Positions 17,532 through 35,035 of a stretch of 64,000 bases of DNA are shown piece by piece. The notes beneath the pieces are model-generated. The model was not told the origin of the DNA and searched no databases. It saw only the letters and a list, made by a program, of their open reading frames with translations. Numbering within the stretch: the first letter of the stretch is position 1; the number at the start of each line of letters is the position of its first letter. The DNA is taken from NCBI RefSeq assembly GCF_021739025.1, contig NZ_JAKKOT010000003.1, positions 372,001 through 436,000 on the forward strand, written 5' to 3'. Made by a program: the position numbers and the translations under genes. This DNA is from Gordonia liuliyuniae (lineage in GTDB: Bacteria > Actinomycetota > Actinomycetes > Mycobacteriales > Mycobacteriaceae).

Positions 17532-20500
17532 TCGAGTACGCGAGGAGACGTCGCAGCCGGTTCCGGGCATGGTCGCGCCGATCGTGCCGACCGACCGCGC
17601 GGCGATCGTGTTCGGCGAGCGCACCGTGTCGTACGGCGAGTTCGCCGATCGGGTGTCGACGCTGGCCCGCGCACTCATCGATGCGGGCGTCGGACCCGAG
17701 GTGGCTGTCGGCGTCCAGATGGACCGCTCCGTGGAGCTCATCGTCGCACTGCACGCGGTGTCGGCGGCGGGTGGGCAGTTCGTGCCGATGACCACCGACC
17801 TGCCCGACGACCGCTGCCGGTACATGGTCGAGACCGCGGGCGTCGCGCTGGTGCTGACCTCCGGTGATCCGCAATCGGTGCGCGACCGCTATCGCGGTCT
17901 CGCACCGGTGGTGGTCGTGGACTGCTCATCGCCGGCGGAGGCCGCCGCGCCGGTCCGGGACGAGGAGCGGTCGGGGCCGATCCGTCCGGACACCGCCGCC
18001 TACACCCTGTTCACGTCGGGATCGACAGGCCGCCCCAAGGGCGTGACGGTCTCGCACGCGGCGATCACCAACCGGCTGGCGGCGGAAGCGTCGCTGGGCA
18101 AGTTGACGACCAGCGACGTGGTCCTCCACAAGGCGCCGATCACGTTCGACATATCGGTCGTCGAGATCTTCGGGACCATCGCGACCGGGGCGACGCTCGT
18201 GGTGGCAGCGCCGGGCGCGCACGGCGACCCGACGGCCCTCGAGCACGTGATCGGTCGGACGGGCGTCACTGTCGCCTTCTTCGTCCCGCCGATGCTCGCC
18301 GCGTTCTGTGACGTCCTCGGCGACCGCGTCAGCACCCTCACGTCACTGCGCCGGATCACGTCCGGCGGCGAGGCGCTCGCCGCGGAACTCGTGTCTCGGG
18401 TGCGTCGGTCGCTGCCCGCCGTGCGATTGGAGAATCAGTACGGGCCGACCGAGGCGGCAGTCGACGTCACCTCCCACCACATCGTCGACGATCGTCCGAC
18501 GGTGCCGATCGGGAGCGCGCTGCCCGGAGTGACGACCTACGTACTCGACGACGCGCTCGGAGTGGTGCCTGTCGGGGTGCCGGGCGAACTGTATCTCGGT
18601 GGCCCCCAGGTGGCCCGCGGTTACGCGTCCCGCCCCGACCTCACCGCCGAACGTTTCGTCGCGGACCCGTTCGACGTGGCAGGCGGGCGACTGTATCGGA
18701 CCGGCGACCGGGTCCGCTGGAACGCCCGCGGCGAGATCGAATACCTCGGCCGCGTCGACTTCCAGGTGAAATTGCGCGGCCAGCGCCTGGAGATCGGCGA
18801 GGTGGAGGCGGCGCTCGCGGCCGTGCCCGGCGTGGTCCACGCGGCGGCCGCCGTCGTAGAGGCTCCGGGCGGGCCGCAACTCGTCGGATACCTCGCCCCG
18901 GACACCGTCGACGAGGCCGACGTCGCCGCGACGCTCGCCGAGCGGCTGCCCGACTACATGCGACCGACCACGTGGGTCCGGCTCGCGACGATGCCGTTGG
19001 GCGCCTCCGGAAAGGTCGACCGTCGCGCACTGCCGCGGCCGGAGTTCGGGAGCACCGAATACGTGGCGCCCGTCGGCGACGCCGAGGCCCTGGTCGCATC
19101 GGTCTTCGGCGACCTCCTCGGCCAGGACCTGGTGAGCGTCGTCGAATCGTTCTTCGACCTCGGCGGCAACTCGCTCGCCGCCACCCGACTCGCCGCGAGG
19201 GCAGCCGAAGCCCTCGACACCGAGGTGAGTGTTCGCGACGTGTTCGACGCGCCGACCGTGCGGGAACTCGTCGCGGCGGTCGCCGGCCGTGCGCGTGCCG
19301 CCGCGCCGATCACCGCGGTGGTCCCGCGACCGGCGCACATCCCGCTGTCGTTCGCGCAACAGCGGATGTGGTTCATCAACCAGCTCGAACCCGACTCCGC
19401 CGCGTACAACATTCCGCTCGCGGTGTGGATCGACGGCGACCTCGACGACGACACCTTCCGGGCCGCGCTGACCGATGTCCTCACCCGCCACGAGGTGCTG
19501 CGCACGGTGTTCGCCACCGGCCCGACCGGGAACGGGCAGCAGGTGATCACGCCGATCAGTCGGCTGACCGACCTGCTCGACGTCGCGGTCGTCGACCGTC
19601 TCGACGATGTGCTCGCCGCGGTGCACGCCGGGTTCGACGTCCGAACCGACCTTCCGATCCGAGCGCGTCTCATGCATCAAGGCGACCGGACGGCGCTCCT
19701 GCTGGTACTGCACCACATCGCGGGCGACGGACAGTCGCTCGCGCCGCTGCTACGCGACGTGGTGACCGCCTACCTCGCGCGGGCCGCGGGCTCGCCGCCG
19801 GCGTGGGAGCCTCGCCCAATCGAGTTCGCCGACTTCGCCCTCTGGCAGCACCGCGAACTCGGTTCCGTCGACGACACGGATTCGGTGGTCGGACGACAGC
19901 TCGACTACTGGGGCCCGCAGTTGACCGGACTGCCGGACGTCCTCGACCTGCCGACCGACCGGCCGCGACCCGCGGTCGCGACGATGGCGGGCGCGAAAGC
20001 AGAGTTCACCGTTCCCGCAGACGTAGCGGCCCGAATCAAGACGTTCGCCGCGCGTGTCGATGCGACACCGTTCATGGTGGTGCACGCCGGTCTCGCCGCG
20101 GTGCTCGCTCGCCTGGCGGCCGTCGACGACGTCGCCGTCGGAACACATGTCGGCGGCCGTGGGCAGGCCGTCCTCGACGATATGATCGGCATGTTCGTGA
20201 ACACGCTCGTCTTGCGGACTCAGGTGCGGAGTTCGATGAGCTTCACCGAACTGGTGCGACAAGCACGAGGCGTGGGACTGGACGCGCTGGCAAACGCCGA
20301 CGTCCCGTTCGAATACCTGGTCGAGCGCCTGGACCCGGCTCGATCGCAGGCGTTCGCGCCGCTCATGCAGGTGCAGCTCTCGTTCGACCAGGACAGCGGG
20401 GCAGATGTCGAACGGACTCGCTCCCTCGACGTCGCCGGGCTGACGGTGACCCCGATCGACCCGGGCGCCCCCGTCGCACAGGTCGACCTGACCGTCGGTG

Positions 20501-23346
20501 TCTGGACCGCGGGCGACGGCGAGGACTGGGCCGGCTCGATCATCTACGCGACCGACCTGTTCGACGAGTCGACGGTCGTCGCGTTCGCCGACCGCCTGGT
20601 GCGAATGCTCGACGACCTGACGGCGACACCGGACCGAGCGGTCGGCGACGTCGACTTGCGGACCGACGATGAACGGCGCGAGACCGACCGACTGGCCGTC
20701 GGAGCCTCCCACGACGTGGCGCCGTCCGTCCTGCCGGACCTGCTGTACTCGCAGATCGAGGCGTCGCCCGCAGCGACCGCCATCGTGTACGAGGGGCGGA
20801 GCATCGACTATGCGGAGTTCGGTGCATGGGTGAGCGCGCTGGCCCGCGACCTGATCGACGCGGGAGTCGGCCCCGATCGGGCGGTCGCCGTCTGCATGCC
20901 GCGCACGGTGGAGATGGTGCTGGCGATCCATGCGATCGGCGCCGCAGGCGGCGCGTACGTACCGATCGACACCGACGCGCCGAGTGAGCGTGTCGACTAC
21001 ATGCTCGCCACGTCGGGTGCGGCCACCGTGCTGGTGTCGGCGCACGCCGACGTCAGTCCCGCTATCGCCGAACTCGGCTCCACTGTGCGGATCGTGTCGG
21101 TCGACGCGCACAGCGCAGTCGATCGCGGCGACCCGCGGACGCTCCCGGTCACCGATGGCGACCGGATCTCGCCGCTGCGGACCGACAACGCCGCGTACAC
21201 CCTTTTCACGTCCGGATCGACGGGCCGCCCCAAGGGCGTCACTCTGTCGCACCGGGCGGTCGTCAACCGGCTGTGGTGGGGACTCGACGAGATGCCTCTC
21301 GATCGCACCGACGCCGTGCTGCTCAAGACGCCGTACACGTTCGACTGCTCGGTCCCGGAGATCTACGCGCCGCTCATGGTCGGCGCCCGCATGGTGGTCG
21401 CGAAGGCCGACGGGCATCTCGACCCCATGTACCTGTGCGACGTCATCACCGAGACCGGCGTGACGATGGTGCACTTCGTTCCGTCCATGCTCGCCGTGTT
21501 CCTCGACATCGCAGGCACCGAACGCGTTCGCGCGCTCACGAGCATCAGGTACGTGTCGACGACGGGTGAGGCGTTGCCCCCGTCGGTCGCCGCGCAGACT
21601 CGGTCCGCGCTTGCTCACGCCGCGCTCTACAACCTGTACGGCCCGACCGAAGCCGCAGTGGAGATCACCTTCGCGAACGTGGTGTCGGCGCACGCCGACG
21701 ACAGCACCGTCCCGATCGGCGTCCCGGTGTGGAACTCCACCGCGTACGTGCTCGACGACCGGCTCCGACCCGTCCCGCTCGGCACACCCGGCGAGCTGTA
21801 CGTCGGCGGCGTCCAAGTGGCGCGGGGGTACGCGGACCGTTCCGAACTGACAGCTGAGCGTTTCGTCGCCGACCCGTTCGGGATGCCAGGCTCGCGCCTG
21901 TACCGGACCGGCGACCTCGTGCGACACGGTGCGGGTGGAGCCCTGGAGTACTTGGGTCGCACCGACTTCCAAGTGAAGCTCCGCGGCCAACGCATCGAAC
22001 TCGGTGAGATCGAAGCGGTGCTCAACGGCATCGACTCGGTGATGCACGCGGCCGCGACGGTGGCGACGGCACCCGGTGGCGGCGACCATCTCGTCGCCTA
22101 TCTCGCCGGTGTGCCGGGCCAGGACGTCGACCTCGACGACGTTCGCGCGCAGACCGCTCACTCGTTGCCGGAGTACATGCGCCCGACCGTCTGGACGGTG
22201 ATCGACGAGATCGTGTTGAACACGGCGGGCAAGATCGACCGCAAGGCGCTGCCGACACCCGACTTCGCCGCGTCGGACGAGGAGTACGTCGAACCCGACG
22301 GTGACGCGGAGACGATTCTCGCCGACATCTTCGCCGACGTGCTCGGCATCGAGAAGACGTCGGCCACGGCGAGCTTCTTCAGTTTGGGCGGCAACTCATT
22401 GTCTGCCACCAGGGTGCTTGCCGCCGTGCGTGAACGACTCGACCCAGACGCGCAGCTGGGCTGGCTGTTCGACGACCCGACCGTCCGCGGGCTCGCGGCG
22501 CGGATCGACGCGCAGCAGCGAGGTGTGGACGCCGGTGCGTCGGTGCTCCTCGGCCTGCGGACCGAAGGCCGCCGACCGCCGTTGTTCTGTGTCCATCCGG
22601 CAGGCGGCCTGGCGTGGTTCTACGGCGGGCTGGCGCCGCACCTCGCCGACCGCCCCATCTACGGGCTGCAGGATCCGGCGGTGGTCGCGGGCGAACCGGA
22701 ACTGGCCTCGATCACCGAGCTGGCGAAACGCTATGTCGACGAGATCCGGCGCGTGTCGCCGACCGGCCCCTACCACCTGCTGGGCTGGTCGCTCGGCGGC
22801 CTCGTCGCGCACGCGATGGCAGTCGAGCTCCAGGGCCGCGGCGAGACGGTCGACTTCCTCGCGGTGATGGATGCTGCGCCCGCGGGCGACGATGACCTGC
22901 CCGCCCATCACCACGCGGCCCCGGCGTCTGAGACGTCGGCGCAGGACGTCGTCGGCGACCTGCTGGGCGGTTGGCGCGAACTGTTCAACCTTCCGGAGGA
23001 GTCCTCGGCGGCGGGGGCAGACGATGTCGCGGACGTGGTGCGGACGTCGATCGTCCGCACCGGACTGTTGACGGAGGACCAGGTCCAGCGGGTGATGGAC
23101 AGTTTCGTGCGCTCAGATGCGATGACTCCGACGCACCGGGCCGACGTGTTCGACGGGCCGTTGCACCTGTTCACTGCGGTGCGTGACAAGCCGGAAGGGA
23201 CGGACCTGGCCGCGCGGTGGCGGCCGTTCGTCTCCGGACGAGTCCTCGGCACCGACGTGGACACACACCATCTCGGGATGGCCGACGAGGACTCGTTGGC
23301 GGTGATCGGACCGGTGATCGAGGCTGCGTTGCACCGGCTGAGATGA
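17524..23346 (+). CDS. Non-ribosomal peptide synthetase, terminal subunit A-T-C-A-T-TE
   Basis: The terminating subunit of the assembly line. The GTG start overlaps the end of the previous gene by 8 bases, so the two are translationally coupled. Domains by residue: A about 15-505, T about 510-580 (DLGGNSL), C about 595-1,055 (HHIAGDG), A about 1,070-1,575, T about 1,585-1,660 (SLGGNSL), thioesterase about 1,675-1,940. The thioesterase has the nucleophile motif GWSLGG (Ser1756) and a likely catalytic His1916 in HHLGM, and would release the peptide by hydrolysis or cyclisation. Both C domains are the L-accepting SFAQQRMWF type. Hand-aligned A-domain specificity residues are DIVFTGQVD and DCPHSTLVE; neither matches a code I can name. 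The protein starts with an A domain that must work with the C domain ending the upstream protein, an unusual split inside a module. Confidence 0.97.
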
Positions 23347-23754: not shown

Positions 23755-23944
23755 ATCGCCCCAGGTCATGGAATCTGGAACGATTGCGATTCAGTTGATC
23801 GAATGAACAAGTTTGCTGGTCGTGAGCTGTGAAGTCTAGCGGGTGAGTCATCCCTAAGTTACGCTGACGTAGGGCCCAAGGCGTACAGCCTTTCACCGGC
23901 AGGTGCGGCGCTTGGGGGACGCAGTGAGACGGAGGGATCGGGCG

Positions 23945-24298
23945 ATGGGCACGACCAATCAAGCCATTCGCGATCGGTGGATTGCCGACCTGTGCATCCA
24001 TGTGGCAGACCGGTCGGAGACCGGCAGCTGGATGGTCGCGGTCCGACATAGCGGCGACGCCGTGACCTTCGGCGCTCTGGAAGCAGCGATCAACGACTAC
24101 CGACGCATCGTCGGGACACACGGGATGTCCCTCGAAAGCGCTCTCACCGGTGCGCTGCTTCATACCGCGCCGAGCCTCGTCGACCTCGAACCCGCCGAGC
24201 GCGCCAGCGTCGTCGACCAGATGATTCGCTGGCTCGGCCGCGATGTCGCCGCCGCACCGGCTGTGACTGCGGCGCCGACCCTGCGATCGGTCGGCTGA
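23945..24298 (+). CDS. Hypothetical 117-residue protein
   Basis: I do not recognise the family. The protein is soluble, with no signal peptide or membrane segment, and its middle (about 40-95) is rich in Ala, Leu and Glu and probably helical. The C-terminus is an Ala/Pro-rich tail. The ATG at 23,945 is favoured because GGAGGGA lies 7 bases upstream; a GTG at 23,903 would add 14 residues. It is a single-gene unit, followed closely by a strong terminator hairpin. Base usage matches its neighbours. Confidence 0.7.
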   Translation: MGTTNQAIRDRWIADLCIHVADRSETGSWMVAVRHSGDAVTFGALEAAINDYRRIVGTHGMSLESALTGALLHTAPSLVDLEPAERASVVDQMIRWLGRDVAAAPAVTAAPTLRSVG

Positions 24299-24424: not shown

Positions 24425-25663
24425 GTGTTCACCGATCAGCCGAACATGCCTCTCGTACGTCGGCTCGCTACCGTCGTGAGCGGTGCCGAGACAGGCCGCT
24501 CGTCCCTGCAGACGCTCCAGGCGGTCGGATCGGCGATCGCCGGCGCCGCATACTTCGTCTACCTGATCGCGGCCACCAGTTCGTTCGCCAGGTTCGGCGG
24601 TCTCGCCGCATCGTGGTGGCTCCCGCTGAGCATGGTCGTCGTGGTGGCGAGCGGACTCGGCCTGTTCTGGGTGGGAGTCAGCGGCCGACTCGACCGTCTC
24701 CTGCCCGTCGCCGCCGCCGCCGCGATCGCGTACCTGGTCCTCATGACGTTGTGGTTCGTCGCGTGGAACGGGACGTCCACTCGGAGCGGCGACGCCGACC
24801 CGACGATCATCGTCTGGTTCACGATCATTCCCGCGCTGGCGTGTCTGGCGCTGGTCCTCGCCGAACGACCCGTCCTGGCGGTCACCAACCTGGTCGTCGC
24901 AGGCGCGCTGAGCGAAGCCGTCGCCTCGGCGGGCGACTACGGTCTGGACACGGTCCTTCGGTCGGTGTGGTCGATCGCGTGGTGCGCGGTCTTCCTGGCG
25001 ATGGGCGCCACCAGCGTCGCCTTCGCCCGCCGACTCGATCAGACCCGGTCGGCGACCGTGGCGGCCGCCCGCGACCTCGCACGCGAGGACATCCGCGACA
25101 TCGAGAGCCGGCGCGCCGACGCTCTCGTCCACGACCGGATCATCGCCTTCCTGCTCGCCCTCCCGCCGGGGCGCCCGACGTCTGCGACGAGGTCCGCGGC
25201 AGCGGCGGTACTCCATGAACTCGACCACTGGTGGGACGAGCCGATCGAGGCGGACGCCCCGGTCGACGCTCGAGAGTTCGTCCAACGACTTCGGACCACC
25301 GTGGCGCGGCTGGGCGCCGACGTCGCCGTCCGCGCGGACGTCGATGCGTCGGTCACGGCTCGCTATCACGGCGACACGACCCCGGCGCTCCTGGACTCGG
25401 CGGCCGAAGCCGTCCGCAACTTCCACCGGCACGCGGGTGCGGAGGCATCGTGCGTGGTGCTCGCCGTGGTGCATGACGACGAGATCACCGTGACCGTCGC
25501 CGACGACGGCATCGGCTACGACCCGGACGAGACTCCACCCGGCAGGCTCGGCGTCTCGTTCGGCATCACCGGCCGCATGGCTGCCGTCCCCGGCGGGTCG
25601 AGCAGCGTCCTCAGTGCGCCCGGCCACGGCACCCGCGTGCGTCTGCGGTGGGAGAGGCCGTGA
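24425..25663 (+). CDS. Membrane sensor histidine kinase-like protein (pair A kinase)
   Basis: 412 residues. About six hydrophobic segments fall in residues 33-200, followed by a DHp-like helix and a HATPase_c domain. The candidate phospho-acceptor is His236 in ALVHDRIIAFL, placed like the HD motif of NarL/DesK-type (HisKA_3) kinases. The ATP-binding site has an N-box (EAVRN, Asn332), a G1 box (VADDGIGYDP, 358-367) and a G2-like SAPGHGT (397-403). There is no separate extracellular sensor domain, so the stimulus is probably sensed in or at the membrane. GTG 24,425 was chosen because GAGAGGAG lies about 10 bases upstream; an ATG at 24,392 lacks such a site. Its stop overlaps the next GTG by four bases. 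The cognate response regulator is not adjacent; the nearest is at 31,528. Confidence 0.85.
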   Translation: MFTDQPNMPLVRRLATVVSGAETGRSSLQTLQAVGSAIAGAAYFVYLIAATSSFARFGGLAASWWLPLSMVVVVASGLGLFWVGVSGRLDRLLPVAAAAAIAYLVLMTLWFVAWNGTSTRSGDADPTIIVWFTIIPALACLALVLAERPVLAVTNLVVAGALSEAVASAGDYGLDTVLRSVWSIAWCAVFLAMGATSVAFARRLDQTRSATVAAARDLAREDIRDIESRRADALVHDRIIAFLLALPPGRPTSATRSAAAAVLHELDHWWDEPIEADAPVDAREFVQRLRTTVARLGADVAVRADVDASVTARYHGDTTPALLDSAAEAVRNFHRHAGAEASCVVLAVVHDDEITVTVADDGIGYDPDETPPGRLGVSFGITGRMAAVPGGSSSVLSAPGHGTRVRLRWERP

Positions 25664-26721
25664 ACCCGTCGATCGGTGAGCGGCTCGGGCGACCGCCCGC
25701 CGTGCGGATGCTCGTCCTGGGTGTCGTCGTGATCTACTTCGCCGCTCTTGGCGCGTACACCGTGCACAGTGGGATCGAGGTCGGGTTCGACACGGTGAGC
25801 TGGATCGGCATGAGTGCGGCGTTCGTGCTGTTCGTCGCTGCGGCGGTCCCGCTGAGCAGCACGATATTCGCGGAGCTCACCGACGCCCGGGCGCGGGCGA
25901 TCGCGCTCCTGACCGTCGGTGGCGTCGCCGCGACATGGGGATCGGCCGCGTACGCTCACGCACCCGGTCTCGCCGCCTACCAGCCGATGCTGGCCACGGC
26001 CACCGTGGTCGCGGTGATCCTCATGTTCGGAGGCCGCGTTGCCTTGGTGTGGGCGGCGATCTCCTCGAACATCACAATCGGGCTGATCCTCGGCCCGTTC
26101 ACCGAGTCGGCACGGTGGTTCAACGCGGTCCTGCCGCGTGCGAGCCTGACGATCCTGTTCGTCGGGACCTGCGGAGCCGTTCTACTCGGCCCGCAGATGG
26201 CGGAGATGCGGGCCCTCGGGCGCCGGCAGCGGGCCGACGACAAGGACGTGCAGGACCGCCGCCACGACGCCGCCGACCGCGAGGACCGGATTCGGCGGAT
26301 CGACGACCGCGTCCGACCGCTGTTGAGTCGTATCGCGGACGGGCACGAGGTGACCGACGACGACGTCATCGATGCGCGACTGATGGAAGCGAAGCTGCGC
26401 GACGGCATCCGCGGTCGTGCGTTGGACGTGCCACGGGTGCGTGCCTCGGTCTGGGATGCGCGACGTCGGGGTGTATCGGTGGCGGTCCTCGACGACGGTG
26501 GACTCGACGCCCTCGGCCCGGACCGTTCGGCCGCCGTGGTCGAGGCGGCGGCAGTGGTGCTCGAATCCGAGCTGGCGACGCTGACGAGCGGCGACGTCGT
26601 CGCCCGCATCGCGCCCGCGGGGCGGGATCCCGTCGCGACCGTCGTCGTCGTGTCCGGAGCGATCCGGCGACGGATCGAACTGGGGGCCGACGGCTTCGTC
26701 GTGCGGACGGTCGAAGCGTGA
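25660..26721 (+). CDS. Membrane partner protein of pair A kinase, unknown function
   Basis: 353 residues, with about five or six hydrophobic segments in 15-180, a charged linker (183-212), then a soluble C-terminal domain. It resembles the proteins at 27,917 and 33,977 in that domain. Shared features are DDRVRP (215-220), a Leu-x-Glu then LRD (241-248) followed by IRGR, Leu-Asp-Val-Pro, an Ala-Arg-x-Arg-Gly-Val element and LDD (277-279). There is no N-box or G1 box, so it is not an active ATPase kinase of the usual type. GTG 25,660 overlaps the kinase stop as GTGA, implying coupled synthesis and probably a complex. It may be a degenerate kinase or a sensor/adaptor subunit. Confidence 0.8.
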   Translation: MNPSIGERLGRPPAVRMLVLGVVVIYFAALGAYTVHSGIEVGFDTVSWIGMSAAFVLFVAAAVPLSSTIFAELTDARARAIALLTVGGVAATWGSAAYAHAPGLAAYQPMLATATVVAVILMFGGRVALVWAAISSNITIGLILGPFTESARWFNAVLPRASLTILFVGTCGAVLLGPQMAEMRALGRRQRADDKDVQDRRHDAADREDRIRRIDDRVRPLLSRIADGHEVTDDDVIDARLMEAKLRDGIRGRALDVPRVRASVWDARRRGVSVAVLDDGGLDALGPDRSAAVVEAAAVVLESELATLTSGDVVARIAPAGRDPVATVVVVSGAIRRRIELGADGFVVRTVEA

Positions 26722-27920
26722 ACGAGTCCCGGATGCGTCGTGCCGCGTCGCTCACGGTGGCCGTCTGCACGATCGTCGTCTCGTGCGTATCGGTGATCCC
26801 GATGCGCAAAGGCGCGCAACTGACGGCGTCCTGGTGGACACCGGTGTCGGTGGCTGCTGTGGTCGTCGCCGCAGTGCTCCTGTTCGCCGCAGTGCTCCTG
26901 TTCGCCGGAGCCCTCTGGGGCGGGACCTCCTCCGGTCGCGCCGAGCAGCGGATCGGCGTCGTGCGGGCCACGATCGTGCTCCTCGCCGCCGTCGACGTCG
27001 TCATGCTCATCCTCTGGTTCCCCGCGTGGTCGGGGGCCGTGTCGGACGTCGGGGGATCACCGCCGATCTGGATGGCGAACAACGTGGCGCTTCCGGCGTT
27101 GGCGTTGGCCACCGTCTTTCCCGTCTGGTGGTCGCTCGCCTACGCGCTCGGCGGCCTCGCGCTCCTCGCCGCGGTCCAACAGCGGATCGGTTTCGGGGGA
27201 CAGGGGTGGGACGCCTACCTCAATCAGGCGATGACGTTCGGCATGCTCGCAGTGTTCCTCACCATGCTCGGCACCGCGATGCACATGGCGCGCAACGTCG
27301 ATCGCAGCCGGGGCGCAGTGCTCGCCGAGACTGTCGAGACCGCGACCGCGGCGGCCCGCGGAGCCGAACGTCGGCGAATGGACGCCGTCGTCCGCGACCG
27401 CGTCATCGGAGTGCTGCGCGACATCACTCCCGGACGTCCCGACGGCCGCCGCCGAGCCGAGGCGAAGATCGCCATGGACGAGCTCGACGGGATCGTCGCG
27501 GACGCCCCGGCGCGGCATCGGACCAGCGTCGCGGACGCCGTCGTCCGACTCCGCGAATCAGCGATCGCATTCGGCGACGACGTGCTCGTGGCGGTCGACG
27601 CCGCCGACGATGCCGTCGACCTTCCCGACGACGTCGTGGACATCCTGGGCGACGCACTGAACGAAGCAGTCGGGAACGCCGTCGCCCACGCGGGTCCGAA
27701 CGCCTCGACGGCGGTCGTCGGACACATCGCCGCCGAGGGCATTCGGGTACGCATCGTCGACGACGGGTGCGGTTTCGACCTGGCCGCGATAGCCCCCGAC
27801 CGGTCCGGGATCGCCGTCGGGATCACCGGCAGACTGGCCGGACTATCCGGTGGCCGTTCGGACATCCGTACCTCGCCGAGCGACGGAACGATGGTCTCCC
27901 TCGAATGGGTGCGCTCATGA
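26718..27920 (+). CDS. Membrane sensor kinase-like protein lacking the phospho-acceptor His (pair B kinase)
   Basis: 400 residues, built like pair A: hydrophobic segments in about 10-190, a DHp-like helix, then HATPase_c. At the position where pairs A and C have VHD or IHD, this protein has VVRDRVIGVL, so Arg226 replaces the histidine. The ATPase domain keeps an N-box (EAVGNAVAHAG) and G1 (VDDGCGFDL), with a weaker G2 (SPSDGT). It may therefore bind ATP without autophosphorylating, or trans-phosphorylate a partner; both are inferences. GTG 26,718 overlaps the previous stop (GTGA) and its own stop overlaps the next ATG (ATGA). A tandem 18-bp duplication lies in the second hydrophobic segment. 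Confidence 0.82.
   Translation: MNESRMRRAASLTVAVCTIVVSCVSVIPMRKGAQLTASWWTPVSVAAVVVAAVLLFAAVLLFAGALWGGTSSGRAEQRIGVVRATIVLLAAVDVVMLILWFPAWSGAVSDVGGSPPIWMANNVALPALALATVFPVWWSLAYALGGLALLAAVQQRIGFGGQGWDAYLNQAMTFGMLAVFLTMLGTAMHMARNVDRSRGAVLAETVETATAAARGAERRRMDAVVRDRVIGVLRDITPGRPDGRRRAEAKIAMDELDGIVADAPARHRTSVADAVVRLRESAIAFGDDVLVAVDAADDAVDLPDDVVDILGDALNEAVGNAVAHAGPNASTAVVGHIAAEGIRVRIVDDGCGFDLAAIAPDRSGIAVGITGRLAGLSGGRSDIRTSPSDGTMVSLEWVRS
26868..26903 (+). repeat. Tandem 18-bp duplication in a membrane segment
   Basis: GCCGCAGTGCTCCTGTTC occurs twice head to tail (26,868-26,885 and 26,886-26,903), encoding a doubled AAVLLF within a predicted transmembrane helix of the pair B kinase. The copies are identical, so the duplication is probably recent. 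It stays in frame. Confidence 0.9.
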
Positions 27921-29068
27921 CTGCCCGCCGCGGGACAGCGAAGATCGGGACGGGACAGATCGGGACAGCGAAGATCGGGACGGGGCAGATCGGGAAGGGG
28001 CAGATCGGGTCTGGGCAGATGACGACGGATGTGGGCATGCCGGTGATGCTCGGCCTGCGGACCCGGCGGCTGCACGTGGCGGTGACCGGACTGCTCGTGG
28101 TCTATGTCGCGGTGCGCGCCACCGCGTTCGGCGACGCGAGGACACCGGCGCAGTGGGTGCTGGAGGCGGTCGCCGTGCTCGGACTGTCGGTGGCCGCGCA
28201 CCGCGTCCTCCTCGGCGACGAGGACCCGCTGCCGTCGCGCAGCACGCTCGCTGTCGCCGTCGTCGGAGTCGCGTCCGTCGCCGCGGCGTGGTGGGCCACC
28301 CCGCTCGCCGCGGGCGTCTGGGTGCAGGCGGGCGCTCCGCTCGTCGTGTTCGCCGTCGTCGCGGGACTGTTGACGTTGCGCGGGCGTGCCGCCGCCGCGT
28401 GGACGGTGTGCGGCGCGGCTCTGGCGATCGCCGTGATCTGGTCGATGCAGCGCGGTGGCACCGCGGTCGCAGGCGGCCAGCTCACCGTGCGCATGGTGAT
28501 GGCGTTGCTGCCCGCCACGCTGATGGCGTCGCTGGTGCGGCCGATGCTCCGGTTGACCGGTGCGTTGGAGGAGCGCCGAGTCCAGGCGGCTCGGTCGGCT
28601 GCCGTGACCGTTGCGACGGCGGCCGAACGCGCTCAACGACTCCGGCGTTTCGATGACGAAGTCCGCCCCTACCTGCAGCGAGTGGCCGACGGTGCGGAGT
28701 TCGACGAGGCGGCTGCGATGCGCGCGAGCCTGGTGGAGCACAACCTGCGGGACGCGGTGCGCGGCCGCGGGTGGTGGTCGGCGCAGACGAAGACGTCGTT
28801 GGCGGCGGCGCGCGGTGCGGGCGTCGCGGTGCGGGTCCTCGATGACAGTCGGACGGAGTTGTCCGCCGACGACGCCACGGTGCTGCACACCGAACTCGCC
28901 GCGACATTGGCCGCGGCGAGTTCGGGAGTGGTGACCGCTCGGATCCTGCCGAGCGGCCGCGAGGACGTCGCGGTGATCACCGTGGTGACCGCGGACGGAA
29001 TCATCCGTCGGGTCGCCGGGCGTCGCAGTGGCGTCCTCGTCTGGCGTTCTGGAGGGTCGGTCGACTGA
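27917..29068 (+). CDS. Membrane partner protein of pair B kinase, with N-terminal pentapeptide repeats
   Basis: 383 residues. Residues 6-35 are six pentapeptides of the type G-T-A-K-I / G-T-G-Q-I. Hydrophobic segments follow in about 52-210, then the partner-family C-terminal domain: FDDEVRP (245-251), Leu-x-Glu and LRD (272-279), VRGRG, Ala-Arg-Gly-Ala-Gly-Val and LDD (308-310). No kinase ATPase motifs are present. ATG 27,917 overlaps the kinase stop (ATGA), matching the coupling in the other pairs. An in-frame ATG at 28,019 sits after the repeats and would give a repeat-free protein, so the true start deserves care. Function is unknown; a complex with the preceding kinase is likely. Confidence 0.78.
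   Translation: MTARRGTAKIGTGQIGTAKIGTGQIGKGQIGSGQMTTDVGMPVMLGLRTRRLHVAVTGLLVVYVAVRATAFGDARTPAQWVLEAVAVLGLSVAAHRVLLGDEDPLPSRSTLAVAVVGVASVAAAWWATPLAAGVWVQAGAPLVVFAVVAGLLTLRGRAAAAWTVCGAALAIAVIWSMQRGGTAVAGGQLTVRMVMALLPATLMASLVRPMLRLTGALEERRVQAARSAAVTVATAAERAQRLRRFDDEVRPYLQRVADGAEFDEAAAMRASLVEHNLRDAVRGRGWWSAQTKTSLAAARGAGVAVRVLDDSRTELSADDATVLHTELAATLAAASSGVVTARILPSGREDVAVITVVTADGIIRRVAGRRSGVLVWRSGGSVD
27931..28020 (+). repeat. Six tandem 15-bp units at the start of the partner B gene
   Basis: Six consecutive 15-bp units fill exactly 90 bases. Units 1 and 3 are CGGGACAGCGAAGAT; units 2, 4, 5 and 6 resemble CGGGACGGGGCAGAT with small changes. They encode alternating basic and polar pentapeptides in the cytoplasmic N-terminus of the membrane protein. 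The unit size keeps the frame, so copy number can vary without breaking the gene. Confidence 0.95.
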
Positions 29069-29084
29069 CCGGCCAGCGCTTCTA

Positions 29085-29100
29085 AGTGCCGAGTGGCACT
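29085..29100. terminator. Small hairpin between converging genes
   Basis: AGTGCC-GAGT-GGCACT forms a 6-bp stem in the 30-base gap between the partner B gene and the converging lipoprotein gene. It overlaps the latter's stop codon by two bases. It could serve as a weak bidirectional terminator. Confidence 0.4.
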
Positions 29101-29608
29101 AGCGGCCGTGACCGGACATCTGTGAGGCGAGGTCCTGCACAGCAGTCGCCGACAGCTTCCATGTGCCGTCGACGTTCACGTACGCGAAGTCCATGTCGAC
29201 CGGGGCTGGCGCGTGCGGCGACTTCACCGCAACGGTGGCGGTGGCCTTGTCGCCGTCGACCTTCACCGACTTCACGGTGTAGATGTCCGGCGTGTAACCG
29301 GCCTTCGACGAACCCTTGGCGTAGCCGACGAGAGCGGCCTTCACGCCGGGGTTCGTGATCTCGACGATCGCGTCCAAGTCCGCTTCGGGGGTCGCCGGGT
29401 CGACAGCGGTGCGCAGAATGGTCTGGGCCTGCGCGTTGTCGAGTTCAGCGGACTGTCCGGCGGACTGCTCGGCCGACGTCGACGACATCGCGGTCGAGTC
29501 TGCTGCGGTGTCGTCGTCTGACGAGCAACCAGTCAATGCGATGGCGGCGCCTGCGGCGAGAGCGACGACGCCGACGAGCGGGCGACGCCAAGCGGGAGAG
29601 ACGGTCAT
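29099..29608 (-). CDS. MTB12-like secreted lipoprotein
   Basis: 169 residues. The N-terminus is a lipoprotein signal: basic MTVSPAWRRP, a hydrophobic stretch, then lipobox LTGC with the lipidated Cys at about residue 28. An Asp/Ser/Thr/Ala-rich linker leads to a domain (about 55-165) whose pattern matches the low-molecular-weight antigen MTB12/CFP-2 family. That pattern is a helix of AQTILRTAVD type, then a VKSVKVDGDKATATVAV strand pair, FAYVNVDGTWKLS, and a closing helix. It would be anchored on the outer face of the membrane. The ATG has GAGGAAAGGA just upstream. The family's function is not established, and the assignment is by pattern, not search. Confidence 0.75.
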   Translation of the reverse strand: MTVSPAWRRPLVGVVALAAGAAIALTGCSSDDDTAADSTAMSSTSAEQSAGQSAELDNAQAQTILRTAVDPATPEADLDAIVEITNPGVKAALVGYAKGSSKAGYTPDIYTVKSVKVDGDKATATVAVKSPHAPAPVDMDFAYVNVDGTWKLSATAVQDLASQMSGHGR

Positions 29609-29706
29609 GAGATTCCTTTCCTCGTGTGAGGTAAACCTAACATGACGGTCTTCTGGCGGAAGGTTCGCAGGTCGCTAACTATGCGAGTCCATTCGTCTTG
29701 AATACT

Positions 29707-29726
29707 TTCCCATATGGGAATATATT
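29707..29726 (+). promoter_or_regulatory. Promoter and palindromic operator of the ArsR-AHSA1 operon
   Basis: TTCCCATATGGGAA (29,707-29,720) is a perfect 14-bp palindrome directly followed by TATATT (29,721-29,726), a good -10 element. The ArsR ATG begins 6 bases after the -10 and lacks a Shine-Dalgarno sequence, so the mRNA is probably leaderless. Binding of the ArsR protein here would block polymerase; autoregulation is inferred from position. Confidence 0.65.
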
Positions 29727-29732
29727 GTTGGC

Positions 29733-30119
29733 ATGGCTCGAGCAGCGACGACGTCCGACGTCTTCAACGCGATCGCCGAAGTGCGGCGTCGGGACATTCT
29801 GATGCTGCTTCGGGGCGGGGAGCGTCCGGCGACCGCGGTCGCCGAGGAACTGGGGCTCACCCAACCCGGAGTGTCCAAGCATCTGCGGGTGCTCCGTGAA
29901 GTCGGCCTCGTTCGGGACCGTAGGGACGGCAAGCAGCGTCTCTACTCGCTCGATGCGCACGGGCTGCGATCAGTCCACGAGTGGGCCGGTGGATTCGAGC
30001 AGTTCTGGAACGAGAGCTTCGACCGGCTGGACGACTACGTGCAAGAACTCAAAGAGGAAGCACGAACTCGAGAAGGCAGCAACAACCCCAACAAGAAGGC
30101 AGGGCAAGTCGATGAGTGA
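29733..30119 (+). CDS. ArsR-family transcriptional regulator
   Basis: 128 residues with a winged helix-turn-helix across about 8-85. The recognition region reads AVAEELGLTQPGVSKHLRVL, followed by the wing GLVRDRRDGKQRLYSLD. No metal-binding Cys motif (ELCVCDL type) is present, so this is unlikely to be a metal sensor. It belongs to the ArsR subgroup that sits in an operon with an AHSA1/SRPBCC protein. The C-terminal 30 residues are charged and helical. Its last 8 bases overlap the next gene. A perfect palindrome over its own promoter suggests autorepression. Confidence 0.9.
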   Translation: MARAATTSDVFNAIAEVRRRDILMLLRGGERPATAVAEELGLTQPGVSKHLRVLREVGLVRDRRDGKQRLYSLDAHGLRSVHEWAGGFEQFWNESFDRLDDYVQELKEEARTREGSNNPNKKAGQVDE

Positions 30120-30612
30120 GACCGAAACCGGTGCGGCACTGTCCGCAGGCGGCCGCGAGATCGTGATCTCCCGGGTGATCGATGCACCGCGAGAGCTGGT
30201 GTTCGAAGCGTTCACGCAGGTGCGTCACCTGTCGCGATGGTGGGGGCCGCACGGGTTCACGACGACTACGCGGGCGTTCGAATTCCGGGCAGGCGGAGTG
30301 TGGGAGTTCGTGATGCACGGACCTGACGGGACCGACTACCCCGAATGGATCACGTGGACGGAGATCGACTCGCCGGAGCGGATCGCCATGCTGCACGGCG
30401 AATACAGCGACGACCCGAACACGTTCGAGTCGGTGTTGACCTTCGAACCGATCGGGCAGACGACTCGGGTCGAGATGCGGACGGTGTTCGCCACCGAGGA
30501 GCTTCGCGACGAGGCGGTGCGCAAGCACGGTGCGATCGAGGGCGGCCGCCAGACGCTCGCCGGCCTCGCCGCCTACGTGGCCGAACTCGCCCGCGACGCA
30601 CAGGCGCGCTGA
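30112..30612 (+). CDS. SRPBCC/AHSA1-family protein
   Basis: 166 residues with an activator-of-Hsp90-homologue-1 type START-like fold. The first strand is EIVISRVIDAPRELVFEAFT, followed by the family signature HLSRWWGPHGFT and FRAGGVWEFVMHGPDG, and a long C-terminal helix. Such proteins form a hydrophobic ligand pocket; the ligand is unknown. ATG 30,112 overlaps the end of the ArsR gene by 8 bases, so the two are co-translated and the ArsR protein is its probable regulator. Confidence 0.9.
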   Translation: MSETETGAALSAGGREIVISRVIDAPRELVFEAFTQVRHLSRWWGPHGFTTTTRAFEFRAGGVWEFVMHGPDGTDYPEWITWTEIDSPERIAMLHGEYSDDPNTFESVLTFEPIGQTTRVEMRTVFATEELRDEAVRKHGAIEGGRQTLAGLAAYVAELARDAQAR

Positions 30613-30640
30613 CGGCCAGGCGCGCCGTGGACTCCGGTGG

Positions 30641-31390
30641 TCAGCCGATGTCGACGGCGTCCTCGAACACCATCGACAGGTTCTCGACCGAACTCGTCAT
30701 CAGGGCGTGCCGGGACAACTGGAGTCGACGCAGTTCGTCAGCCATCGGATGGTCACCGAGACGCAGCGTCGCTCCGCCGATTCGAGTGCGAGTGCCCGTC
30801 GTCGACGTCAACCGCCAGGGGGTGCGCCGGGTCACCGCGTCCAACTGCGCATACGACTGAAGCACCGCTTCGGACGTACTGTCCGGGACGCCGATTCCGC
30901 GTCGGACCGCCAGATCGACGATGAGCTTGCCGTCCTGACTCACCCGACCGGTCTTCGTCGCCGAGTCGTGGTCGACGTCGAAGTCGGCGAGCACCTTGGG
31001 GAAACCCCAGATCCCGCGCCCGGCGGCCAGGGTGAACTCGCCGTCGACCGGGAGTTCGTGGATGAGTGCGTGTGCGTCGCCCTTCACCAACGACCCGAGC
31101 GCGCGCAGCGGCGACGGCGCGGCACGGTCGGGATCCTGCACGAGGAAGCAGACGCCGAACTCGTTGTACGGACCGAGATCGCCGTCGACGTAATCGACGA
31201 ACACGAGCATGCACATCGCGCGGCCGGGACGGACCCGCAACGGCGCCAGTTCGACGTCGCCCCGCGAGGCGATGGCGGACCGGACTGCGGACTCGGACGC
31301 GGTGAACCCGGCGACGAAGCAGCGGGCGGAACGGATATGGACGGGCATCGACACTCGCGTGCCGAGAACCTGGTGGCTCGAATCGGGCAT
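30641..31390 (-). CDS. Acetoacetate decarboxylase-family protein
   Basis: 249 residues of the ADC (PF06314-type) fold. The likely Schiff-base lysine is in GIWGFPKVLADFDVDHD (about 130-146), as in family members where a Lys follows a Gly/Trp-Phe-Pro turn. Substrate and product are not evident; many actinobacterial members are not true acetoacetate decarboxylases. It is transcribed away from the response regulator gene, with 137 bases between them, and converges on the AHSA1 gene. Confidence 0.8.
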   Translation of the reverse strand: MPDSSHQVLGTRVSMPVHIRSARCFVAGFTASESAVRSAIASRGDVELAPLRVRPGRAMCMLVFVDYVDGDLGPYNEFGVCFLVQDPDRAAPSPLRALGSLVKGDAHALIHELPVDGEFTLAAGRGIWGFPKVLADFDVDHDSATKTGRVSQDGKLIVDLAVRRGIGVPDSTSEAVLQSYAQLDAVTRRTPWRLTSTTGTRTRIGGATLRLGDHPMADELRRLQLSRHALMTSSVENLSMVFEDAVDIG

Positions 31391-31527
31391 GTCGTCGACG
31401 CTAGGCGAGCCCGGCGGGCTTCGTGGCCGATTCGATGAGGCGAGAATTGTCCGAGGTATCTACTACGTTGGGTAGAGGATTCCGATGAAGTGGTCGGAGC
31501 AGGGGCGAACAGCAGAAGGACGTCGTG

Positions 31528-32193
31528 ATGACGGAATCGCAAACGGCAGTACGGGTGGGGATGGTCGACGACCATCCGTCACCGGTGTGGGGGATCGACC
31601 GGATTCTGGAACCTCAAGCCGACCTTGATTTCGTCTGTGCGGCAGCCACCGTGACCGAACTCCTCACGACCGCCGCCGATCTCGATGTCGTCATCCTCGA
31701 TCTCCGACTCAACGACGGAACCACTCCGCGCGAGAACGTGGAGCGGCTCACCGAGCGGGGGATAGGCACCGTCGTCTACACCTCCGGCGAGCATCCGGAC
31801 CTGTTGCGGTCCGCGGCGCGCGCGGGCACTCTCGGCGTCGTGCTGAAATCCGCCTCGGAGGACGAGATCCTGGACGCGGTCCGTGCCGCGGCGGCGGGCG
31901 AAGGCGTCATCACGACCGAGTGGGCCGCGGCCGTGGACGGCGACCCCAATCTCGACGCTGTCGACCTGAGTCCGCAACTGCAACGGGTGCTCACTCTCTA
32001 TGCGTCCGGGGGCACGTCGACGAGCGTGGGTCGGGAGCTCGGCGTCGCTCCCGACACCGTGAACGAATACCTCAAACGCATCCGGCAGAAGTACGCCGAC
32101 GCCGGGCGGCCGACCCACACCAAACTCGACCTGTTCAAGCGCGCAGTCGAGGACGGGTGGTTGCCGATGCCGCACCGCGCGCGAGGCGAGTGA
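31528..32193 (+). CDS. NarL/LuxR-type response regulator
   Basis: 221 residues: receiver domain about 8-125, LuxR-type helix-turn-helix about 148-215. The receiver has the acidic pair Asp14-Asp15, phospho-acceptor Asp58 (VILDLRL), Thr85 (VVYTSG) and Lys107 (GVVLKSAS), so it looks fully functional. The output domain reads SPQLQRVLTLYASGGTSTSV, then GRELGVAPDTVNEYLKRIRQ, and an extra helix with TKLDLFKRAVEDGW. ATG 31,528 was chosen because AGAAGGA lies 7 bases upstream; a GTG sits one codon earlier. It is the only receiver-bearing regulator in the window and the probable target of one or more of the three kinases. Confidence 0.92.
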   Translation: MTESQTAVRVGMVDDHPSPVWGIDRILEPQADLDFVCAAATVTELLTTAADLDVVILDLRLNDGTTPRENVERLTERGIGTVVYTSGEHPDLLRSAARAGTLGVVLKSASEDEILDAVRAAAAGEGVITTEWAAAVDGDPNLDAVDLSPQLQRVLTLYASGGTSTSVGRELGVAPDTVNEYLKRIRQKYADAGRPTHTKLDLFKRAVEDGWLPMPHRARGE

Positions 32194-32344
32194 CCCCAGT
32201 CCCGGTGTTCAGATAACCGGTGTCACCAGCTCTGGGTCTACCGCGGGATGTCGTGTGTTCGTACGGTTGTATTTGAGCCTGACGTGATGAATGCCGCACG
32301 TAGGTGTTTCACCCCGTTGGTCGGTTTCTCACAGGAGGACTCCC

Positions 32345-32728
32345 ATGACCGCTGCTCCCATGACCGCTGCCCCCAAGCCCCTTACTCAGGTCGAGCCGAT
32401 GAGCGCACCGAGTCAGACGCCGGTCGTCTCCCTCAGCAGCCCCGCCCAGCACAGACCCGCGGGCGTGCCACCGTTCTTCGCCACGGGCGACCCCACGCTG
32501 GTTCGGCCCGCGTTGTCCTCGCGCGAAGTCGAGGTGCTGCTCGCGTGGCTGGCCTCCGAGTCGAAAGAGGATGCGGCGGCGCGTCTGTTCATCTCGGCGT
32601 CGACGGTCAGTACGCACATCTCGCGGATCCGCGCGAAGTACGGCGCCGTCAGACGGTCCGCGCCGACCAAAGCGCACCTGCTGGCACGTGCCCTGCAAGA
32701 CGGATACACCACGCTCGACGTCTGGTGA
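32345..32728 (+). CDS. LuxR-type regulator without a receiver domain
   Basis: 127 residues. A Pro/Ala/Thr-rich, probably flexible N-terminus (1-58) precedes a LuxR-type helix-turn-helix (about 60-125): ALSSREVEVLLAWLASESKE, DAAARLFISASTVSTHISRI, then RAKYG and TKAHLLARALQDGY. The last helix matches that of the response regulator at 31,528 (Lys-Tyr, Arg, Thr-Lys, Arg-Ala, Asp-Gly spacing), so both are of the same output family. There is no phosphorylatable receiver. ATG 32,345 has AGGAGG 6 bases upstream. The third kinase gene starts 31 bases later, so they are likely co-transcribed. Confidence 0.85.
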   Translation: MTAAPMTAAPKPLTQVEPMSAPSQTPVVSLSSPAQHRPAGVPPFFATGDPTLVRPALSSREVEVLLAWLASESKEDAAARLFISASTVSTHISRIRAKYGAVRRSAPTKAHLLARALQDGYTTLDVW

Positions 32729-32759
32729 CCGGTCCGGCGACCACCAGCTGAGGCGCCGC

Positions 32760-33980
32760 GTGGCGACTGTCTCTGCACTCAGACGATTGGCCTCGAGGCC
32801 GTCCCCGGACGGTGTCGAGGCCAGTCGCCGTCGTGGGCGCCGGCCATCGGTCGAACACGACCGCATCGTCATCGTCATGGCGACGATCATCGCCGTCGGA
32901 TACGTCGTCTACCTGATCGTGACGCTGCCCGCGATGCTCGTCGAGGCCAACGGAGTGGTCGCGGGCTGGTATCCGATCGTCGGCACGATCCTCGCGTTCG
33001 GTCCCGGCCTGGCACTGCTCGCGGTCCGGTGGGCGCGGGCCCCGCAACGTCGCGCGCTCGTCACCGCGATCGCTTGTCCGGTCGGCGCCGTGGCCGCCGC
33101 CGGGGTGTGGGGGCTGGCCGGTGTCGGCGAGTCGGCCGAGCCCGCCGTGTGGATGCTCGACTTCGTCGGGCTGGCCGCGGTCGCGGTGGCCATCGTCCGA
33201 CCAGTACGCGAAGCGCTCCTCGTGCTCGTCGTGTGCAAGAGCGCCGCGGCGTACACCGCGCTCGCCCACAGCCCCGGCGTCGATGTCGGGGCGATGGCCC
33301 GCGAAGCGGTCTTCGGGATGCTGTTCACCTCGGCGTTCGTCTACGTGACGTCGATGGTGGTGCGTGCTGGCGCATCGTTGGACGCGTCCCGGTCCGAAGC
33401 CGCCGACCTGGTGGCGGCGAGCGTGCGTAACGACGAGCTCACCCGGTTCGACGGGTTGATCCACGACCACGTCATCTCCACCCTCGTCGCCGTCGGCGCC
33501 GATCGGCGAGACCCGAGAGTCGTCGACCTCGCGTCGTCTGCGCTGGCGCGACTGGACGCACTCGCCGGCCACGACGGCGACGACGAACAGGTGTCCGGCA
33601 CCGAGCTCGTCGCCCGGATCCGCACCGCGATCGACTCGACCGTCGAGACCGTGGTCCACGTCGACACGTCGACGGCATCGTCGTTCGATTCGTCGACGGT
33701 CCGCGCACTGTCGGAGGCGGTCGGCGAGGCGGTCCGGAACTCCCGAACACATGCGGGCGCCGACGCCGACGTCATGGTCGCCATCGACGTCGCAGACGGT
33801 CGAGTGTCGGTGGTGGTCGCCGACGACGGGATCGGATTCGATCCCACCGAGGTCGCCAACGACCGACTCGGCCTGCGATCGAGTGTGCGGTACCGGATGG
33901 ACTCGGTGGGCGGCTGGTCTCGGGTGCGCAGCGCACCCGGGCGGGGGACGACCGTCGAGGTCGGCTGGGCGCGACCGTGA
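32760..33980 (+). CDS. Membrane sensor histidine kinase-like protein (pair C kinase)
   Basis: 406 residues: an Arg-rich N-terminus, about six hydrophobic segments in 36-200, a DHp-like helix with His235 (DGLIHDHVISTL), and HATPase_c with an N-box (EAVRN), G1 (VADDGIGFDP) and G2 (SAPGRGT). The layout is the same as the kinase at 24,425. GTG 32,760 is the only start keeping a reasonable length and lies 31 bases after the receiver-less LuxR gene; the ribosome site is weak. Its stop overlaps the partner's GTG as GTGA. The context points to a regulator-kinase-partner signalling unit. Confidence 0.86.
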   Translation: MATVSALRRLASRPSPDGVEASRRRGRRPSVEHDRIVIVMATIIAVGYVVYLIVTLPAMLVEANGVVAGWYPIVGTILAFGPGLALLAVRWARAPQRRALVTAIACPVGAVAAAGVWGLAGVGESAEPAVWMLDFVGLAAVAVAIVRPVREALLVLVVCKSAAAYTALAHSPGVDVGAMAREAVFGMLFTSAFVYVTSMVVRAGASLDASRSEAADLVAASVRNDELTRFDGLIHDHVISTLVAVGADRRDPRVVDLASSALARLDALAGHDGDDEQVSGTELVARIRTAIDSTVETVVHVDTSTASSFDSSTVRALSEAVGEAVRNSRTHAGADADVMVAIDVADGRVSVVVADDGIGFDPTEVANDRLGLRSSVRYRMDSVGGWSRVRSAPGRGTTVEVGWARP

Positions 33981-35035
33981 CCGGGCCGGACATTCAGGTG
34001 CCAGACATCTGGTGGCGGGGACGTCCGCGCGACGACGCGTCGGCGATCGTCGGGTTGCAGACGCCGCAGGTGATGATCGGGGCGGTCATCGTCTGGGCAG
34101 GGTTCGTCGTCCTCGGTCTCAGCGGAGGAGGGCTCCAGTGGCCGGCCCTGTACGCGGTGTCGTTCATCGGCACGGGGGCGGCGTGGGCAATCGCGCTGCG
34201 CGCTCCCGGCACTCCGATGGCTCGGTCGTCGGCGGCCGCTGTCGTGGTCCTCGAGACCGCAGCCGTCGTCGGGGTGATTGCGGCCGTCGAACCTCTGGTG
34301 CGCGGACCGCTCATGCCGTGCGCGGGCGCCACCGCGATCGTCGGCGCCCTGCTGTGTCTGCGGGGGAGGGTCGACGTCGCGTGGATATCGTTCGTGGTCT
34401 CGACCTCGGCCATCGGGGTGGCGGGGATGGTCCGCGCCGACTCCGGTGAATATCTGGTGATCATGACCCCGGGCAACCTCGGGGTCCTCGTCCTGATGAC
34501 GGTGTTCGCGACGGTGATCGGCCCGCGCGCCGAGCAGATCTTCGCGCTGCGTCGACAGGCTCGCCGGGAGAGTGCGGCGTTCGCCGTCCGCGCCGTCCGC
34601 GACCAGCAGTTGGCGCGTCTGGACGAGCGAGTGCGGCCGCTGCTGCAGTCGATCGCGGCGGGGGAAATCCTCGACGACGAGCAACTGGCGCACTGCCGGC
34701 TCGTCGAAGCCCAGCTACGGGACCGGATCCGCGCACCAGGACTCGATGTTCCCGCGCTGGCAGACGCCGCATGGGCGGCGCGCAAGCGCGGGGTCCGCGT
34801 CCTCCTCCTCGACGACCACACCGACCCCACCGTCGCGGACGAGCCCACGCTCGCCGTCGTGGGCGACGATCGTGCCCGACTCGTCGAGAGGGTGTGGGCC
34901 GCGGGGACGGCCGCGCTCGATCAGGCGGAGCCAGGCGCAGATGTCACCGTCCGGCTGCTGCCCGCCGGACGTGCGGTCGCGGCGACGATCTCCGTCGCCG
35001 CCGACGGCACGGTCAGCTTGCAGGAGTTCGCGTGA
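33977..35035 (+). CDS. Membrane partner protein of pair C kinase, unknown function
   Basis: 352 residues: hydrophobic segments in about 30-183, then the partner-family C-terminal domain with LDERVRP (215-221), Leu-x-Glu-x-x-LRD (242-249), IRAPGLDVP, AARKRGV (267-273) and LDD (278-280). It is the clearest member beside the protein at 25,660. No ATPase motifs are present. GTG 33,977 overlaps the kinase stop by four bases. The same kinase-then-partner order occurs three times in this window, implying an obligate functional pair. The gene ends about 55 bases before the ribosomal operon promoter. Confidence 0.8.
   Translation: MTGPDIQVPDIWWRGRPRDDASAIVGLQTPQVMIGAVIVWAGFVVLGLSGGGLQWPALYAVSFIGTGAAWAIALRAPGTPMARSSAAAVVVLETAAVVGVIAAVEPLVRGPLMPCAGATAIVGALLCLRGRVDVAWISFVVSTSAIGVAGMVRADSGEYLVIMTPGNLGVLVLMTVFATVIGPRAEQIFALRRQARRESAAFAVRAVRDQQLARLDERVRPLLQSIAAGEILDDEQLAHCRLVEAQLRDRIRAPGLDVPALADAAWAARKRGVRVLLLDDHTDPTVADEPTLAVVGDDRARLVERVWAAGTAALDQAEPGADVTVRLLPAGRAVAATISVAADGTVSLQEFA

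Follow-up and report, generated by a model that had tools for sequence, protein, structure and literature searches.

Sensor kinases are usually treated as homodimers, and heterodimers among them are said to be rare (PMC12675982). For the FasB/FasC-FasA system of Streptococcus pyogenes, a kinase/pseudokinase heterodimer has been proposed by its authors (PMC12675982). Membrane cyclases are built on two bundles of six transmembrane (TM) helices, in which TM6 and TM12 extend into a coiled coil (PMC9433096), and the six-TM anchor of the kinase CqsS can replace a cyclase anchor, driving the cyclase upon a lipophilic signal (PMC4821796, PMC12414865). The present analysis concerns three pairs of overlapping genes in a stretch of 64,000 nucleotides of the Gordonia liuliyuniae genome (contig NZ_JAKKOT010000003.1, positions 372,001 to 436,000; this whole stretch is hereafter the window, and coordinates refer to it), each pair encoding a sensor histidine kinase (K) followed by a membrane partner (P). 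The partner is a degenerate histidine kinase, with six TM helices, a hairpin resembling the dimerization and histidine phosphotransfer (DHp) domain but devoid of phospho-acceptor His, and a truncated ATPase-like fold. Each pair is probably an asymmetric sensor made of a catalytic subunit K and a pseudokinase subunit P, both derived by duplication of the same kinase.

The preliminary description of this DNA, made from its letters, had reported three kinase/partner pairs, each with a 4-nucleotide overlap; re-translation gave six open frames and bore out all three, positions and overlaps included. All are on the + strand. K1 (24425..25663) is a six-TM sensor histidine kinase with an H-box LVHDRI and intact N and G boxes, and is overlapped at GTGA by its partner P1 (25660..26721), which has RIDDRVRP at the H-box. 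K2 (26718..27920) has an intact ATP site and an Arg in place of the H-box His (VVRDRV, compared with VxHDxV), and its partner P2 (27917..29068) starts in an ATGA overlap. K3 (32760..33980), a six-TM sensor histidine kinase with H-box LIHDHV and an intact ATP site, is followed through a GTGA overlap by P3 (33977..35035). The preliminary description had missed that K2 itself overlaps the P1 stop (GTGA at 26,718), so that K1-P1-K2-P2 (24,425-29,068) form a single run of four translationally coupled genes, as K3 and P3 are coupled in their turn. Directly after the K2 overlap, a 15/30-nucleotide tandem repeat (27931-28020) encodes a repeat of the GTAKIGTGQIG type in the N-terminus of P2.

In Pfam, HATPase_c was matched above its curated cut-off by K1 and K3 (30.0 and 40.3 bits, respectively, versus 26.4), and K2 passed via HATPase_c_2 (27.8 bits, cut-off 27.4). 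P1, P2 and P3 matched no family in Pfam or NCBIfam, in line with the earlier remark that the partner had no named family, and the partners had no meaningful sequence match in the PDB. P1 is 31-32% identical to P2 and P3, and a C-terminal signature is common to the three. This signature, first noticed on the window copies, is general across 71 partners (consensus LDxx(A/V)RP-LLxRIAxG ... LLEAxLRDxIRAP ... AARxRGVxVxLLDD ... PPGR). Six residues are invariant in these 71 partners, despite identities to P3 of 22-62%, which indicates that selection acts on the C-terminal domain for a role other than catalysis.

The lack of any family match would suit a new membrane protein family unrelated to kinases, acting as a sensor or scaffold, as first proposed for the partner; profile comparisons make this very improbable. 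With the TM part removed, the profile of all partners matched the cytoplasmic parts of kinase halves of K-P fusion proteins (hhalign, 96.8%, E 2.4e-10), and the corresponding cytoplasmic parts of fused outgroup proteins gave 98.1% and an E-value of 1.1e-13 over 179 columns. In this outgroup comparison the alignment extends to the final strands, that of the P half pairing with that of the HATPase, and the outgroup P halves have retained the whole HATPase-like length, last strand included. In the fusions, Pfam detects HATPase in the first half only. Together with the HATPase-like fold described below, the homology to K in the non-TM region and the full length of the outgroup P halves argue against an unrelated origin, and no profile search placed the partner in a known unrelated family.

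The residues lost by the partner were located from the same alignments. In the comparison without TM part, and with the outgroup intermediates (for example L141, IRDDVLPTL versus VLHDTVLNIL), the D of DxxVRP aligns with the phospho-acceptor His of the kinases. A register obtained by full-length hhalign (95%), which placed VRP on VHD (H to R), was replaced since both the intermediates and the TM-less comparison favour D on His; the phospho-His is missing from the partner under either register. Judged by alignment, the DxxVRP motif is the former H-box with its His changed to Asp. In 111 partners, the column of the phospho-His holds D in 87, N in 10, E in 7, A in 3, G in 2, and R and H in one each; HD at the H-box was found in none. 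In this lineage both N-box and ATP lid have also disappeared from the partner: the chain ends in a beta hairpin at the lid position, and neither a conserved Asn nor a HATPase match was found. Because of the TM-less profile match, the fold and the loss of the His column, the partner is classed as a pseudo-histidine-kinase of the DivL and FasC type, in which the architecture of DHp and catalytic ATP-binding (CA) domains is kept and catalytic residues are lost.

An AlphaFold2 model of P3, based on 71 sequences, reached a predicted local distance difference test score (pLDDT) of 90.4. It comprises six TM helices (the sixth reaching residue 227), a helix at 234-252, and then an alpha-beta-alpha-beta-beta-beta succession. 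With this model alone, Foldseek returned no match below an E-value of 0.001. Using VIA-align, residues 253-352 or 232-352 were matched to the CA domains of AgrC (Z 7.1, 3.4 A, 108 residues), PhoR (Z 6.5), EL346 (6.0), DosS (5.5) and DivL (4q20, 5.5). The region from residue 192/194 to 352, containing the hairpin and the degenerate CA domain, was also matched to the phosphotransferase Spo0B (1ixm/1f51, Z 5.8-5.9), a resemblance that could suggest that P is a Spo0B-like relay protein still carrying phosphate. Such a role is scarcely probable: Asp, Asn or Glu occupies the His position in 104 of the 111 partners, with no HD in any of them, and the neighbouring regulators are ordinary receivers joined to helix-turn-helix (HTH) domains.

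Pairing was evaluated across relatives by reading the gene upstream of each partner, without using the kinase to locate the partner. By profile search, the source genome has exactly three partner genes, those of the window; copies occur in most genomes of the genus (partner profile against 61 related genomes), and a scan of genome contigs gave a single locus, in Gordonia zhenghanii. The strict pairing suspected from the three window copies extends to the whole genus, where 79 of 82 intact partners lie immediately behind a K-family kinase (the overlap being exactly 4 nucleotides in 69 of these 79) and the remaining three share one open frame with it. Among wider relatives, for which 40 loci were read, 39 more split pairs were found (gaps of -4 in 31, -8 in 4, -1 in 3 and -14 in 1), as well as six K-P fusions (L106, L107, L109, L110, L118 and L126). 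K-P fusions were also found in a second family of the class, where they are the prevailing form; an overlapping split K and P is present in another actinobacterial family (L149, 1447-3712), and further families of the class also score in the partner search. In the family of the source genome, 130 of the 251 genomes sampled carry the partner, and it occurs in 21 of the 31 genera. K-P pairing is far above chance, and not one of about 120 intact partners stands alone, so the profile search gave no sign of a partner usually found without its kinase. The tree of K matches that of P (rho 0.85, versus a shuffled maximum of 0.14), a correspondence that could stem from adjacency alone.

Partner pieces that seemed to stand alone are explained by frameshifts (second halves), by a contig edge, or by decay of the copy. 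At L035, L043, L069 and L078 the partner gene is frameshifted and the kinase frame is still open. L084 (minus strand, about 4716-5037) has a K fragment directly followed by a P fragment, with a deletion running from K into P, and L131 (4098-4536) has a large internal deletion in P. Taken by themselves, these frameshifted partners and the two decayed copies would fit functionless duplicates undergoing decay, whose coupling is merely inherited with the operon; the six invariant residues at such low identities, the wide distribution over genomes and genera, and the lack of any intact lone partner make this the least credible of the explanations considered.

The physical relation between K and P was addressed on a natural fusion. 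The L126 protein (797 amino acids) was folded with an alignment comprising 24 fused proteins plus 34 rows of partners, in which the placement of each half was verified; a mixed alignment of K, P and fusions (A5) had been dropped for having P rows on the K half, and its replacement (A6) was checked row by row. The AlphaFold2 model has a pLDDT of 87.3 and a predicted template modelling score (pTM) of 0.77, a value which would be hard to reach unless the two halves were placed relative to each other. In VIA-align, the nine best matches to this model are mammalian membrane adenylyl cyclases, aligned from about residue 20 to 631-663 and so over both halves, with Z of 15.2-17.2, 342-412 residues and a root-mean-square deviation of 4.4-6.6 A (for 7pd4, Z 16.5, 342 residues, 4.4 A). 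The cyclases lead in the VIA list only, as Foldseek ranks histidine kinases first, DivL included. The layout of a cyclase anchor, with two six-TM bundles leading into signalling helices, was found by fold in this one fused homologue. A single sequence match to AC5 (E 5.7e-4, domain i-Evalue 0.014), weak and compositionally biased, was not taken as evidence of homology.

The suggestion that K and P form a heteromer is strengthened by the natural fusions and by the joint fold prediction. The same data bear on another explanation, in which P is indeed a degenerate kinase but serves as a phosphatase-type or inhibitory accessory, in the manner of LiaF or RocA, of a normal K homodimer. Membrane modulators of sensor kinases such as LiaF and RocA are already known (PMC12675982), and K retains all the parts needed for a normal homodimer. 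This explanation appears unlikely, though less so than the preceding ones, because P shares the layout of K, including the signalling helix and the DHp-like hairpin, and because the recurring 1:1 fusions and the two-half structural match favour a stoichiometric dimer.

Several points weigh against an asymmetric K-P sensor. The fold matches of the C-terminal region of P are middling (Z 5.5-7.1), and homology was therefore checked by sequence; there, the P C-terminal domain alone compared with K was not significant in hhalign until the fused outgroup P halves were added. What speaks for the predicted placement of K against P is the pTM of the whole model and the structural match over its two halves. 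Co-inheritance of overlapping genes is by itself no proof of a complex, and K or P may also form homodimers.

As judged from sequence and prediction, K proteins have a membrane part of six TM helices and a long signalling helix, and carry an H-box together with a complete ATP site of the Bergerat type. By sequence and fold they are kinases of the DesK/VraS/DosS type, which together with MacS (NCBIfam NF047322) are their closest named relatives; the K proteins of the window score 53.4, 42.5 and 53.2 bits with the MacS model, for a membership cut-off of 300. The N-box and G1 residues are kept in 73 of 73 K proteins, and the phospho-acceptor His in 65, including K1 and K3. Arg is present at the H-box of the other eight, with ATP-site residues otherwise intact: these are K2, whose loss had gone unnoticed in the preliminary description, and the kinases of L034, L035, L039, L040, L044, L058 and L060. 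Within this set of 73, loss of the His is confined to these eight kinases. In a tree of 111 pairs holding seven of the eight, the Arg-bearing kinases are monophyletic, and so are their partners; all eight loci hold another K-P pair besides.

Two regulatory genes, also missed in the preliminary description, stand immediately before pair 3. RR1 (31525..32193, + strand) is a NarL-type response regulator with a GerE HTH domain and an intact receiver, having the acid pair (DD), the phospho-acceptor Asp (D59), the Thr/Ser position (T86) and the Lys (K108). HTH2 (32291..32728, + strand) is a LuxR/GerE helix-turn-helix protein devoid of receiver, with a likelier start at 32,345, after AGGAGG; a 15-nucleotide duplication (32340-32375) repeats its start region, giving ATG at 32,345 and 32,360. 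Across RR1-type regulators, the phospho-Asp is conserved in 67 of 67 and the Lys in 68 of 68, and 58 of 67 directly precede a kinase. Outside the window, the genes usually run RR1-K-P, with HTH2 often coming next.

By analogy with FasB/FasC or CckA/DivL, we infer that each pair would work as an obligate kinase/pseudokinase heterodimeric sensor. Contacts between K and P would be made by the TM bundles, the DHp-like hairpins and the signalling helices, in an arrangement recalling that of the two halves of a membrane adenylyl cyclase. A signal, possibly lipophilic, perceived at the twelve-TM membrane part would shift the register of the P and K helices, and P would gate autophosphorylation of the single His of K, being a gate and co-sensor rather than a second enzyme. 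K would pass the phosphate to RR1, which may act on promoters, perhaps with HTH2. As regards the His-less K2-P2 pair, it may use its ATP site for trans-phosphorylation of K1 or K3, or else act as their regulator. A broader and distinctly more tentative proposal is that these pairs represent widespread actinobacterial receptors for membrane-dissolved ligands, built as twelve-TM, cyclase-like kinase/pseudokinase pseudo-heterodimers, with K2-P2 acting in trans or by occupancy. If this were true, K2-P2, with no phospho-His in either subunit and its ATP site kept, would have to phosphorylate the His of a neighbouring pair or work by occupancy.

Regarding the surroundings of the sensor genes, a two-module nonribosomal peptide synthetase with thioesterase (17524-23346) is located directly upstream of the cluster, and an open reading frame of 131 amino acids with no Pfam match (23903-24298) lies just upstream of K1. 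Between pairs 2 and 3 (29733-31390) lie a gene for an ArsR-type regulator, coupled to one of the AHSA1/SRPBCC type, and, in convergent orientation, an acetoacetate-decarboxylase-like gene.

No published description of this pair was found in the open-access literature, an earlier account in subscription papers being possible. The locus had been put forward as an undescribed two-protein membrane sensor with a partner distinct from kinases; the obligate pair and the missing family name stand, and the non-kinase partner does not, given its profile homology and fold. As the TM-less profile comparison and the fold show a degenerate kinase, the system falls among the kinase/pseudokinase heteromers, of which a small class is already known, and is not categorically new. 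What it brings is a pseudokinase family that has no name and whose members are always accompanied by a kinase of one family, and it points to an asymmetric two-part receptor. Thanks to the natural single-chain fusions, asymmetric signalling can be tested within one polypeptide; the cyclase-like membrane part bears on whether six-TM anchors act as receptors, and the conserved His-less K2 clade offers a ready test for trans-phosphorylation between paralogous sensors.

FasB/FasC-FasA is the nearest working parallel, followed by DivL-CckA, GacS-RetS and the evolved ChrS with HrrS. Like K-P, FasB and FasC are two adjacent sensor-kinase-like membrane proteins, with a proposed pseudokinase, a heterodimer and one regulator (PMC12675982). 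In Fas, however, FasC keeps the phospho-His (H246) and FasB gives the ATPase (PMC12675982), whereas here K1 and K3 carry both and P neither; the TM and DHp families differ, and no fused form is mentioned in the Fas text consulted (PMC12675982), unlike K-P. In Caulobacter, DivL likewise has the make-up of a histidine kinase but no catalytic activity, and controls the active kinase CckA (PMC4211667, PMC12189002); DivL is encoded separately, has PAS sensors and binds DivK~P, whereas the P gene is adjacent and coupled to that of K, and its product has six TM helices and lacks the ATP lid altogether. The ChrS pseudokinase of Corynebacterium glutamicum resembles P in its broken CA domain, and forms a heterodimer with the paralogous kinase HrrS whose output is stimulated, but it is a laboratory-evolved mutant and P a standing gene family (PMC9491836). 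GacS/RetS of Pseudomonas resembles the proposed K-P sensor in being a heterodimer of two sensor kinases in which one modulates the other, but these are hybrid kinases also able to homodimerise, and do not constitute a coupled kinase/pseudokinase pair (PMC12189002). Cyclases and CqsS-type anchors share with the predicted fold of the K-P fusion the paired six-TM bundles, the sixth helices continuing into signalling helices and the single-chain pseudo-heterodimer, while the output of K-P is a histidine kinase and there is no significant sequence relation. Compared with all these systems, the layout peculiar to K-P combines a six-TM partner having neither the His nor the ATP site, strict coupling to its kinase, and natural fusions of the two.

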